Source: Methanoregulaceae archaeon (GTDB taxonomy: Archaea > Halobacteriota > Methanomicrobia > Methanomicrobiales > Methanospirillaceae). From it: 64,000 nt of DNA. The translations under genes and the position numbers were made by a program. This document shows, piece after piece, positions 40,208 through 55,455 of the stretch. The stretch lies in contig JACTVG010000001.1 in the NCBI GenBank assembly GCA_015660965.1, forward strand, positions 248,001 through 312,000. The letters run 5' to 3'. The number at the start of each line of letters is the position of its first letter. Position 1 is the stretch's first letter. Under the pieces are notes generated by a model, which was not told the origin of the DNA, did no database searches, and was given only the letters and a program-made list of their open reading frames with translations.

Positions 40208-40340
40208 TCAGTTTCGCGATCGAATAACACGTGCCGGATTTTCTGCTGCAACTCGATTGGGTAGAATAATGTGTGTCACTATACTGTTTGCACCGATGAT
40301 GTATCCCTTTCCAATAGTGACATTTCTTGTGATGGTAACA
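40208..40340 (-). pseudogene. Truncated hexapeptide-repeat acyltransferase (C-terminal fragment)
   Basis: About 44 codons remain: HVTITRNVTIGKG, then IIGANSIVTHIILPNRV and ENPARVIRSRN, the end of a left-handed beta-helix sugar O-acetyltransferase. Upstream the frame runs into insertion-sequence DNA near 40,340, so the catalytic part is gone. A nominal frame from 40,591 spans the junction but its first 80 residues are a shadow of transposase DNA. Confidence 0.75.
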
Positions 40341-40344
40341 TGAC

Positions 40345-40659
40345 TTGCAGGTACGATTCGATGATCGCATTGACTAGAGCTTTCTCGGTCCGGGAGTACT
40401 GGTCGAAAATTTTGGTTTCGAAAGGAAATTCTCTTAGTTGGGGTTTCAGGAGTGTGACTTCTCCGTACCGGGTCTTTAGGGACTGGGGCCGGTACCCGTT
40501 CCGGTGCGCTCTCCTTGTATTGGATCTCACGGATCTCGGTACTCCGGCCTGTTGAGCTACTTCTTTTTTCATCACATCGTTCAGAAACCATGTGATGAGC
40601 TGTTGCATTCCCTTCTCATTATCTGTAAGGTAATTTAGTACGATGTCACTTAGATTCAT
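40345..40659 (-). pseudogene. IS256-family transposase, N-terminal fragment
   Basis: About 105 codons starting MNLSDIVLNYLTDNEKG and including NGYRPQSLKTRYGEV and FPFETKIFDQYSRTEKAL...ESYLQ, which match the N-terminus of IS256/mutator transposases. The frame leaves the IS family at the junction near 40,345 and continues into acyltransferase DNA out of frame. The catalytic DDE domain is missing, so the element cannot move by itself. Confidence 0.85.
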
Positions 40660-40736
40660 TGCCCTGTTCCTCTTTGTTTCCAATTCACTGTTGATACAGG
40701 GCATCTTACATTTTACAGCACTTCGTGTACGCTACC
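40629..40736. repeat. Direct repeat copy 1 (IS end)
   Basis: Similar over about 108 bases to 43,851-43,964 in the same orientation, judged by eye at roughly 85 percent identity. It spans the first codons of the transposase and the outer end of the element, stopping at GTGTACGCTAC. Confidence 0.8.
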
Positions 40737-40786: not shown

Positions 40787-41989
40787 TTATATTCTTTCGT
40801 AAAGGTATTCCCAGCTGGAGTATTCCGGGATTAAAAAGCCATCATTTCTGATAAGTTCAGGTAAACGATAGATCTGTTTAAATTCGGTTTTTGGAAGTTC
40901 ATACTCCGGATTATTCAGATTAAGATATTTTAATCCCGGCGTTAACGAATTATTCTCATTCTCATTATTCGCATGTAAAAAGTATTTTTTACATATCCTG
41001 TTTATCTGCCGCAGGTATTCTTTGAGAGTATCTGGATCCATCTGAGTCATGCTGTGTGAATTGAAAACCAGGTCAACCGATCGTTCTGGCAGATCTGGAA
41101 GGCAGTAATTGGGCAGGATTATAATATCGTACTCTGAAAAATCAGAAATCTGGTTCTCACTTTCCTTGTAAAGTAAAATTTTTTTGTCAGGAAAATGGTT
41201 CATGAGGAAATATGTGGCTAATGTGCACATCTCTGGCAAATCAACATAGATATATCTGCACTTGAGTGAGGTATGTTTGAATAAATGATATGGTAATGAT
41301 CCATAACCTCCTCCGATTTCCAGAATAGTAATCTTCTTAAGAGAACCTGTGAACAGTCTGTCGATCTTTTGCGCGAAATAGGACTGGTTGAACGAGGGCA
41401 GCATGATTGATTTACCATCAATATCTATACCATGCATATTACCGATTTCCTTTGAATATTCAAGCACTTCATCCGGGAGAAATGTCATTTTTTTCCAGAT
41501 GAAATAACTTTTATTATAGCAGTTGAGGAGCAGTAATTTATGAAAAAAGGAATGTGGGATCGTGTCAAAGAGATGCAAGCCCCTGCTGACCTTATCCCTT
41601 GCAAAATTTGACAAAATGGCGTTTACACCCTCCCTATCCCCCTGCTTCAACTTTTGTATTAATTCTTGTTGATCGTTTCCAAAAATGATTGCCCAATCAC
41701 CAGAAATTTTATAAACCTCTTGCTGTATCTTTTGGTCTTTTATTGCGAGGTTGTATGAATTTATGATTCTGGAAATGGAATTTTCAATAGAATTGATAGT
41801 ATTAACGGTCCTCTTTTTTTGCCCTTCATTGATATCCTTCAGTTGAAATCGCGACTGGTGAGATATTGCCATCATTACCCACATCAATAGGTAATAAAAA
41901 TTTCCTTGTCCCCTTTTTATGAGTCTTACACAATACTGAATTAGTCCTTCAGTTTTGATAATTTTTATCGAGTCACTAATTATATTCAT
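40787..41989 (-). CDS. Putative sugar O-methyltransferase (NanM-like family)
   Basis: About 400 residues from the ATG at 41,989; the ATG at 42,004 is an upstream option, but the decayed paralogue at 53,314-54,460 also starts with the corresponding residue. The SAM-binding motif is ILEIGGGYGSLPY near residue 225, followed by YIYVDLPEM and DLVFNSHSMTQMD. The N-terminal half is helical and family-specific. It likely methylates a glycan sugar. The gene is AT-rich relative to the housekeeping region and lies between two IS ends. Confidence 0.82.
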   Translation of the reverse strand: MNIISDSIKIIKTEGLIQYCVRLIKRGQGNFYYLLMWVMMAISHQSRFQLKDINEGQKKRTVNTINSIENSISRIINSYNLAIKDQKIQQEVYKISGDWAIIFGNDQQELIQKLKQGDREGVNAILSNFARDKVSRGLHLFDTIPHSFFHKLLLLNCYNKSYFIWKKMTFLPDEVLEYSKEIGNMHGIDIDGKSIMLPSFNQSYFAQKIDRLFTGSLKKITILEIGGGYGSLPYHLFKHTSLKCRYIYVDLPEMCTLATYFLMNHFPDKKILLYKESENQISDFSEYDIIILPNYCLPDLPERSVDLVFNSHSMTQMDPDTLKEYLRQINRICKKYFLHANNENENNSLTPGLKYLNLNNPEYELPKTEFKQIYRLPELIRNDGFLIPEYSSWEYLYERI

Positions 41990-42154
41990 CTCTTCAGATC
42001 TCATGTGGGAGTTCTTATTATTACTAAGTTTTCAATAATTTATAGCAGTCAGTTTATCCGGGCATTATTACGGTTTTTAACATTCTCCGTTTAAATATCT
42101 GAGAAAAAAGGAAAAACAGGTTACAATAGGAGAATGCATTTAGTAGAATCTCTG

Positions 42155-51386: not shown

Positions 51387-53227
51387 ATGAAAAAAGGAAA
51401 AGTTCTGATTATTTCCCTTTCTCATATATCCGAATACAGGAAAATAATTAAAAAAAAAAGATCCAGGAACCCTTCCACTGGATTTATTTCGGAAAAAATT
51501 ATCCTAGGCTCCGCGAACTGGAAAGAAATTTCGGAGTTACCAATACCCGCATTTCTATAGGTAAACGGCTCCAGGATATTGCAAGGGAATACCGGAAAAG
51601 CTATATCGACTATATCGGATCCCTTATCCCTACAGATAATCATGTTCTCTGGTGGGCGTCATCTGTTTCCGAAAAAAGCCCGCTCATATCGAATGTGCTG
51701 CTCTATTTTTGTTACATAAAAATTTTTCAGGAAACTGTAAATGGCGATCACGGCAATCTCGTCTTTATCTGTGAAAACCGTGCCCTATCGGAAGCTTTGG
51801 TAAAAAATTGTCCCCCTGAATGTAACATGGATATATTGACCTATGAATCACCGATCAGCAGATTCAGAGAAAAGATCTCTTATTCCATTTCCGTTATCCT
51901 GCGGAAATCCTGGTTTTTTTCGAGATATATTTCGCGTATTGTTATGGCAGGGATCTTTCGCAGGGTGAAACATTTTATAAGGAGATCCCACAAACTGCAA
52001 CAATCTCACGGATATGTGGCAATGCACTCATGGGCTGATGACCGGTCTTTTCTAAAAAACCAGAAATTTGAAAATATTTTTTTCATGGGGATTGCGGACC
52101 GGTTTATGGAAAAAAAGATCCCCTTTTTTTATCTTATCGATGTTCTTCCGACATATTTTTACCCGCAAGCTCTTTTGAAATTAATCCGGAATGATGAAGA
52201 ATTTATACTGCTCGAAGAACTTATCAGTCCGTCTGATGTATGGAAATCTCTCAATTATATGAGGTCTACCCCTCTGACGAAAAGACCACTTCCTTCATGG
52301 GAAAGAATTGATATGACGGATATCGTTTTTGAGGAATTTCGAAGGGATAACCTGAATATCCGCCGTGAAGAATCGTATCTTCGTTACTGCTCTACACGAT
52401 CGCTGAAGCAAAACTACCGTACAGATATTTTTTTGTATCTTTTTGAAAACCAGATCTGGGAAAAATTATTTTGTGCCGGAATTCGTGAATTCGAAAAGGA
52501 GACCAAACTTGTGGGATATGCACATACCCTTGTGAGATCGATGTATACGTGTTATTCCATGTCCCGGCATGAGAGGAACATCATGCCGCTCCCAGATATC
52601 ATAATTGCAAGCGGGGAACTGGGAAAAACTACTCTAGAACAATCCGGGTTTACCGATGAAACAATCCTTGTTGGTGGTGCTTTACGGTACCCCCATATTA
52701 ACCAGAGAATTTCTGGTGTTCAGCCAAAAAAGCCATTAAATAAAAAGAAAGTCTTGATCGCATTATCAGGAGGCCTGGATGAATCCTTGGAACTTATCAG
52801 TAAGGTCGTAAAATCGCTGAATGGGCTTGATGTCGACATCATTGTCAAATGCCATCCGGTGTTACCATACATTCAAATATCCCGATATATAGGCGAATTT
52901 TCGGAAAAATTGATTGTGTCTGATAAATCCATTGATTCTCTCCTTGCTGACACAGATCTCGTTTTTTATACTGAAACAACTGTTAGTGTTGAAGCGCTGG
53001 CTCAGGGGATTCCGATTATCCATGTCAAATCCGATTGCCGAATTGACATGAATATTTTTGAGGATCTTCCTTCGGTACCAAGCGAGAGTGACAGTACCTC
53101 CTTACAAAAGGCAGCAATGAATGCATTAACCGTATCGCGACCCATAATCTCAGAAGAAAATCAGCGATTTATCAAATGTTTGTTTTTACCGGTAAGAGAT
53201 GATATCGTTGAAATGTTTACGACATAA
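51387..53227 (+). pseudogene. Surface carbohydrate biosynthesis protein, frameshifted at an A10 tract
   Basis: Two frames make one protein. Frame A begins ATG at 51,387 (KKGKVLIISLSHISEYRK) and reads into ten A at 51,450-51,459. In frame B coding resumes directly after this run (IQEPFHWIYFGKNYP, LRELERNFGV, WWASSVSEKSPL) and continues without a stop to 53,227. One additional A, or a -1 slip, joins them to about 613 residues. The whole resembles proteins of the surface-carbohydrate family TIGR04326, with a GT-B-like C-terminus (IALSGGLDESL, VKCHPVLPY). The only obvious start inside frame B is far downstream (about 51,695). It is marked pseudogene, but could be phase-variable, a programmed frameshift, or a sequencing error. 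Confidence 0.7.
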
Positions 53228-53313: not shown

Positions 53314-54460
53314 TTAATTCGAGATCCTTTCGTAAAGATACCCCCATGTTGAAAATTCGGAGACAATATAACCATCATTGCGAATCAATCCCGGGAACCG
53401 GTAGATATGTTTGAAAAATTCAGAGGGTAATTCAAATCTCGGATCACTGAGATCGATATATTGAGAATTCCCAGCTATTGATTGCGGGGATCCCTCAACA
53501 TTTGCATGGAGGAAGAATGATGTGCATATCCTGTTTATCTGGTGTAAATATTCAGTCACGGTTTCTGCACTCATCTGGCTCATGCTGTGGGAATTAAAGA
53601 CCAGGCAGCAACACCAGTTAGGAAGTTTTTGAGCTGGTAATTGGGCAGGATGATGATATTATAGTGCCTGAAGTTAATCATTTCACCGGGATTTTCCCCG
53701 TATAATAATGTCTTTTTTTCGGGAAAATTACTCATTAAGAAATATGCCGCAATAATGCACATTTCACGAATGTCGAGATAAACATAAATGCACTTGGTTT
53801 TCAGGTGCTTAAAGAGATGGAATGGGAGTTACCAGTACCCGCCTCCAATTTCGATCACCACCGGCTTCTCATCGGTTGCCGAGATAAGACGAGAGATTCT
53901 CTGCGCATAATATGACTGGTGGAATGCAGGGAGCATCATGAATAACCGTTGTGGTCCACTCCGTGCATGTTTCCGATCTCTTTTGTATAATCGAGTACTT
54001 CATCAGGAAAGCCGGTCATCAGTTTCCAGACAGTATAATTACGTTTTATCGTGAGGAGGAGCCGGATCTTTTCCATGTATGTAACAGGAAAATTTCCTGA
54101 ACGGCTCAACCCCCTGTTGATTTTCTCAACGATCTCATCATAGTTTTCCTGTATTATTATCTCCCAGTCGCCGCTGATCTGATAGGGTTTTTCCTGCTCC
54201 CTTTGATCAGTCTCAGTCTTTTTATATGCCTGGACAATTCTCGCTATTGCCTCTTGGGTTATTGCAGTGTTTTTCCTTTCTGCACTTTTTATCCCGGGTT
54301 TAAGATCTTTCATATGAAATTTTGTATGTGGGTTAAATTCCACCCTGATGTACGCAAAAAAAATTCTCAAATCTCTCCCAACGCAATTAATGAGTCTAGA
54401 TAAAAAGCTCATTAATCCCTCATTTTTGATAATTTTAATGGATTCATGAATTAGATGCAT
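53314..54460 (-). pseudogene. Decayed paralogue of the sugar O-methyltransferase
   Basis: The fragments align end to end with the intact protein at 40,787-41,989: residues MHLIHESIKIIKNEGL match its MNIISDSIKIIKTEGL. Three breaks are visible. First, a frameshift near 53,936 after GNMHGVDHNGYS. Second, a stop in the SAM motif, where GGGYGSLP has become GGGYW-stop. Third, a frameshift near 53,600 before FNSHSMSQM. The coding frame resumes each time, so decay is recent. The two copies lie about 12 kb apart in the same orientation. Confidence 0.85.
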
Positions 54461-54645: not shown

Positions 54646-55455
54646 ATGCAAAAAAAATTATTGAAAAAAAAAATACACCAACCTCTCGATGTAGTTATTT
54701 TTTGTGGAGGTCGCGGTACCCGGTTAAGCGAAAAAACCCGGGAGATGCCAAAACCTCTTGTAGAACTCGGGGAATATCCGGTTCTCTGGCATATCATGAA
54801 AATATATTCTGCATATAATCACCGGAAATTCATTCTTACCCTGGGTTATAAAGGTGAAATGATCATCGACTATTTCCTCAACCAGTATCCGGTTCTGCAG
54901 AATTTTAGTATAAATCTTCGCGACACTATTCCACCCAAAGCGAAGGATCCTTGGGAAATATCATTCGTCCATACAGGTCTTGAATCAAAAACTGCCAAGA
55001 GATTGTTACTGTGTAAAGATGCAATAAAAACCGGGACGTTTCTGGCAACATATGGAGATGGGGTCGCCGATATCAACCTTGCCAAACTCATTGAGCATCA
55101 TGAAAAAATAAAAAAACAGGAAAATATTATCGCAACGATCACCATAACCCGACCTTACTCGAAATATGGAATTGTCCGACTCAAGGGTAATATCGTCAAG
55201 GAGTTCAGCGAGAAACCCCAGATGAATGAATATGTCAATGTCGGATTCATGGTTCTTGAAAAGGAAATATTTGATTATATCGATCCTTCGACTGACGTAA
55301 TGTTCGAAGATACCCTGGAAGCAGTGGCTGAAAATAATAGACTCGGTTATTATATTCATGACGGGTTCTGGCATGCCATGGATACCTACAAAGATTATGC
55401 GGATATGAATGCTATGTGGAAGGAGGATCCAAAATGGAAAATATGGCAAGACTGA
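54646..55455 (+). CDS. rfbF: Glucose-1-phosphate cytidylyltransferase
   Basis: A 269-residue protein with the RfbF start FCGGRGTRLSEKTREMPKPL and the YGDGVADINL metal site, YVNVGFMVLE. It makes CDP-glucose from CTP and glucose 1-phosphate. The N-terminus is lysine-rich and encoded by runs of eight and ten A (54,650-54,657 and 54,664-54,673). It leads a plus-strand operon with a CDP-glucose dehydratase-like gene, a cupin epimerase, a reductase-like SDR and a glycosyltransferase. Confidence 0.92.
   Translation: MQKKLLKKKIHQPLDVVIFCGGRGTRLSEKTREMPKPLVELGEYPVLWHIMKIYSAYNHRKFILTLGYKGEMIIDYFLNQYPVLQNFSINLRDTIPPKAKDPWEISFVHTGLESKTAKRLLLCKDAIKTGTFLATYGDGVADINLAKLIEHHEKIKKQENIIATITITRPYSKYGIVRLKGNIVKEFSEKPQMNEYVNVGFMVLEKEIFDYIDPSTDVMFEDTLEAVAENNRLGYYIHDGFWHAMDTYKDYADMNAMWKEDPKWKIWQD

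Follow-up and report, generated by a model that had tools for sequence, protein, structure and literature searches.

A one-base frame break at an A10 tract in a putative glycosyltransferase gene of a methanogen glycan locus, most likely a recent slippage null allele

The window (the whole stretch of DNA analysed, 64,000 nucleotides, 248001-312000 of contig C4) contains a putative surface-glycan gene on its forward strand that is broken in frame at a run of ten A (A10, 51450-51459). The run occupies codons 22-25, 63 bases into the gene, and is read AAA AAA AAA A in the frame of the start codon (frame 0); it is thus an in-frame homopolymer whose length sets the reading frame, as expected of a phase-variable site. 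The frame-0 ORF (51387-51560, + strand) opens with ATG at 51387 and closes with the stop codon at 51558-51560; its 57 aa are the genuine N-terminus as far as A10 and out-of-frame residues beyond it. Right behind a TAA at 51449-51451, the -1 frame opens at 51452 and stays open to 53227 (+ strand); it encodes residues ~23-613 of the protein. Its first ATG, GTG or TTG is the GTG at 51695, with none earlier from 51452. The longest ORF that has a start codon (51695-53227, + strand, 510 aa) begins at this GTG; its product would start ~100 residues late and lose invariant positions that lie between W32 and P99. The two frames would be joined if the tract had 8, 11 or 14 A. The preliminary description of this DNA had stated that an N-terminus ends and its continuation begins at the A10 tract, and that one extra A would give a single protein. 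Both statements hold: the first agrees with the ORF frames and with a profile alignment, and for the second, 11 A yields a protein of ~613 aa that is colinear with its relatives.

At 35-37% identity, the relatives each have one uninterrupted reading frame, 610-636 aa long, with no internal stop. A profile built from 11 of them, excluding the window sequence, aligned to the joined protein over residues 7-612, scoring 546 bits, and was ungapped at the joint. The N-terminus had been called convincing, and here some reserve is due, as it comprises only ~22 residues whose individual similarity is weak; the case for it is carried by colinearity and by the relatives-only profile alignment, which covers residues 7-27. 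The conserved Trp32 and Tyr34 (in FHWIYFG) are read in the -1 frame from ~51479, so that homology confines the shift to ~51452-51478, 27 bases with the tract included. Codon usage modestly favours frame 0 before A10 and frame -1 after it (+4.6, versus -6.2 for the continuing frame).

A syntenic orthologue is intact in a relative of the same genus, Methanoregula sp. PtaU1.Bin051 (genome G003, MVRE01000019.1). It lies in the same place, with a dehydrogenase gene upstream and a glucose-1-phosphate cytidylyltransferase gene downstream, and the shared block runs from the upstream epimerase genes through a downstream GT2 gene. The A tract is absent from every one of the aligned relatives, all of which are distant. 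A pattern scan of genome contigs with the single joined protein found no close relative, a scan of genome contigs with the alignment found four distant ones, and a tract-spanning pattern had no match in viral contigs.

The product is best read, with the help of a predicted structure, as a divergent glycosyltransferase that belongs to a surface-glycan locus. A Pfam search with the gene gave no match. In NCBIfam, TIGR04326 (O_ant_LIC13510, 'surface carbohydrate biosynthesis protein') matched the C-terminal half, ~243 residues, at 7e-31; the score of 107 bits falls below the curated cut-off of 250 bits, which makes the protein a distant relative of that family rather than a member, although the glycan-locus setting is a further point of likeness. 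An AlphaFold2 model of the part encoded after A10 had a pLDDT of 79.8 and a pTM of 0.82, and its top Foldseek matches in the PDB were GT-B glycosyltransferases and UDP-GlcNAc 2-epimerases (E ~1e-8, TM-scores of 0.35-0.43 by query length), as a GT-B fold would predict. The earlier assignment as a surface-carbohydrate gene is backed by this fold, by the sub-threshold TIGR04326 match and by the syntenic deoxysugar/glycan locus.

The genes that follow look like those of a CDP-deoxysugar pathway, judging from TIGR02623-like and TIGR02622-like products that both score below cut-off. The glucose-1-phosphate cytidylyltransferase-like gene (54646-55455, + strand) is intact and has an A10 of its own at 54664-54673, at codon 7. 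This second tract is in frame, lies after the start codon and ahead of the GGRGTR motif, and is 3.2 kb downstream of the first.

Beyond its A10 the glycosyltransferase gene is otherwise intact, which is a second property expected of a phase-variable gene. After the tract 588 codons are open, with no second stop or frameshift in 1.77 kb. The window copy retains 73 of the 91 residues that are invariant in its four closest relatives (0.80, where intact copies retain 0.78-0.86), and relative-rate counts gave no significant excess of changes in it. The absence of a second lesion, the retention of conserved residues and the lack of acceleration together imply that the break is recent or that the product is still made. 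The break looks recent on these comparisons, which were made with relatives distant enough (35-37% identity) to be too far apart for dN/dS on recent constraint.

We propose that a GT-B-fold glycosyltransferase gene of a glycan locus here carries a null allele that arose recently by slippage and could in principle revert, and we give this reading a probability of roughly 0.55. Slipped-strand replication would have left ten A where 8, 11 or 14 keep the frame; this change of one base in the length of the tract would stop translation after 57 codons, leaving most of the enzyme unmade, including the nucleotide-sugar-binding C-terminal half, with a glycan as the presumed target of the lost activity. 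The null should be reversible in principle because the lesion sits in a homopolymer, where the same slippage could restore the frame, so that the gene would now be switched OFF by what is in effect a reversible null. Slippage in 5' poly(A) tracts is a described route of reversible inactivation in prokaryotes (PMC2831843). The allele is possibly leaky through slippage of RNA polymerase or of the ribosome, in which case the gene would not be fully off.

The break may instead mark the beginning of a plain and irreversible loss of the gene, in a locus that is shedding genes already; this account overlaps with the slippage null and differs from it in later fate only. A putative sugar O-methyltransferase, now a pseudogene, lies next door (53314-54460, - strand). 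It is a decayed paralogue of 40787-42004 with at least three lesions, comprising frameshifts near 53937 and 53620 and an in-frame TAA at 53829-53831, and none of these sits at a long homopolymer. Death of this neighbour by three ordinary lesions indicates that the glycan island also sheds genes in the ordinary way. Further disabling mutations had been named in advance as a sign of plain decay, and this expectation was answered in two ways: the adjacent gene has three, and the glycosyltransferase gene itself has none. The fragment of an IS256-family transposase within the same island (40279-40704, - strand, 141 aa, matched by the N-terminal part of the model alone) is a further point in favour of plain loss. 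Against it stands the lesion-free 1.77 kb with its conserved residues and unaccelerated change, and we regard it as possible but doubtful.

A possible objection to any biological interpretation is that the true chromosome has 11 (or 8) A and an intact gene, the ten A being a sequencing or assembly error or the consensus of a mixed population. Among singleton frameshifts validated by homology, sequencing errors should outnumber true mutations (PMC3711429), and the genome is a 2.43-Mb draft of 170 contigs with 3.6% contamination. We set the tract against a census of in-gene homopolymers (A/T of at least 8 or G/C of at least 7) covering ~698 kb of the 2.43 Mb, together with an exact A10 search of the whole genome. 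The census found 109 in-gene homopolymers, and once tracts near gene 3' ends were set aside the A10 at 51450-51459 was the only clear frame switch among them; other in-gene tracts of A9, G8 and G9 and two other A10 read in frame. A general error at homopolymers is thus unlikely. It remains that only three in-gene tracts reach A10 or more, so that accuracy at this length is barely probed, and that the related MAG G003 also seems to carry a frameshift, in trpE (contig C3, around 144106), which is apparently split near an in-frame A10 with the shift seemingly downstream of the tract. On balance we consider an error at this particular tract unlikely. The top matches of an ab initio frameshift screen were for the most part weak overlapping ORFs or ordinary overlaps between genes; the first fragment of the present gene is below the length that such a screen can call.

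The A10 tract is in itself not beyond chance, since synonymous shuffling of in-gene codons, with amino acids fixed, expects ~10 runs of A10 or more where three were found. What is beyond chance is that the sole clear frame switch coincides with one of the longest in-gene homopolymers of the genome. The whole genome has ten distinct runs of at least 10 A/T; three are in called genes, and two of these three are in this locus.

The preliminary description had taken the tract for a phase-variation switch. The one-base break at an A tract of a surface gene stands; that it is a reversible switch in use is made doubtful by the absence of the tract in relatives, the depletion of long A tracts, the ordinary pseudogene next door and the lack of a second length variant. 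As true phase variation, the A10 would be a maintained contingency site that toggles the glycosyltransferase, varying for example a virus receptor or surface antigen. Its 5' position in a surface-glycan gene fits, as does an OFF state that would be recent and free of decay. So does the spacing of the two in-gene A10 tracts found here, both close to the start of a gene: a separation of 3.2 kb has a chance of ~0.8% under uniform placement, a simple estimate made post hoc. Orsi et al. found A/T tracts of 8-9 bases over-represented in the genes of Methanoregula alone among 18 archaea (PMC2831843). Against phase variation, in-gene A9 numbered 7 against 23 expected from the synonymous shuffles, so that A9, like A10 and longer, is depleted, and runs of A6-A7 exceed that expectation (C4, C5 and part of C42). 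Enrichment of the genome in long coding homopolymers would have supported a switch, though it is not strictly required, and we see the opposite of a switch-rich genome. Differing expectations and another species may explain the mismatch with Orsi et al. The orthologues have no tract, and the tracts of A10 or more sampled in three related genomes (part of those in G003, and those in G004 and G011) gave no convincing tract-split gene, although the automatic frame calls were noisy; the clearest candidate among them was the G003 trpE described above. Nor did the assembly hold a second copy or length variant of the gene, which is present once in the single genome per species compared.

Bacterial homopolymer phase variation, as in the poly(A) tract of Bacillus subtilis swrA or the surface genes of Campylobacter and Neisseria, likewise involves a long homopolymer close to the start of a surface-related gene, where a change of one base breaks the frame. 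Here, in contrast, the tract is absent in orthologues, the genome avoids such tracts, the host is an archaeon and the case is known from one assembled sequence. We consider toggling of the glycosyltransferase by a maintained contingency site quite unlikely. We likewise hold out little likelihood for a wider scheme, in which selection would maintain poly(A) contingency switching within the surface-glycan cluster of an archaeon, with the cytidylyltransferase A10 perhaps also switched and the surface varied, possibly against viruses. A recent slippage null allele is the most likely explanation, and a selected switch is no more than a possibility.

The absence of decay would also fit continued function through recoding, in which a -1 ribosomal slip on A-AAA-AAA, or an A inserted by RNA polymerase, would yield some full-length enzyme, constitutively or under regulation. 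The -1 slip had been offered earlier as the alternative to phase variation, and the slippery heptamer of the form X-XXY-YYZ is indeed present in frame 0 at 51452-51458. The rest of the arrangement does not follow: a stimulatory structure should lie 5-9 nt downstream, whereas the stem here starts ~1 nt after the heptamer and folds no better than shuffled sequences (z -0.74), and the frame transition is conserved in no relative, all being single open frames. Programmed frameshifting is unlikely on these three counts. The nearest precedent is fucA1 of Saccharolobus solfataricus, an archaeal gene whose two ORFs meet at an A-rich heptamer, with the downstream one in the -1 frame; slippage by -1 on A-AAA-AAT has been proven there, with ~10% efficiency in vitro, and relatives have the frame closed by a single-base difference in the run of A (PMC8211752). 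Close relatives of fucA1 keep the slippery region, whereas the known relatives here, all distant, are without it, and the locus also lacks a well-placed stem-loop. Slippage of RNA polymerase on the A10 is plausible, and transcriptional slippage on long A/T runs is described for bacteria (PMC1088944). Taken together we rate recoding of either kind as improbable.

How widely phase-variable loci occur across archaea is described as an open question in a 2025 review (PMC11868660), and a phrase search of a library of papers for archaeal phase variation gave no match. If the tract lengths vary in reads, the locus would offer a simple test of phase variation in a methanogen; if they do not, a fast-evolving glycosyltransferase gene would have been lost recently in a routine way. 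Slippage at the second A10 (54664-54673) would likewise cut off the cytidylyltransferase-like gene.
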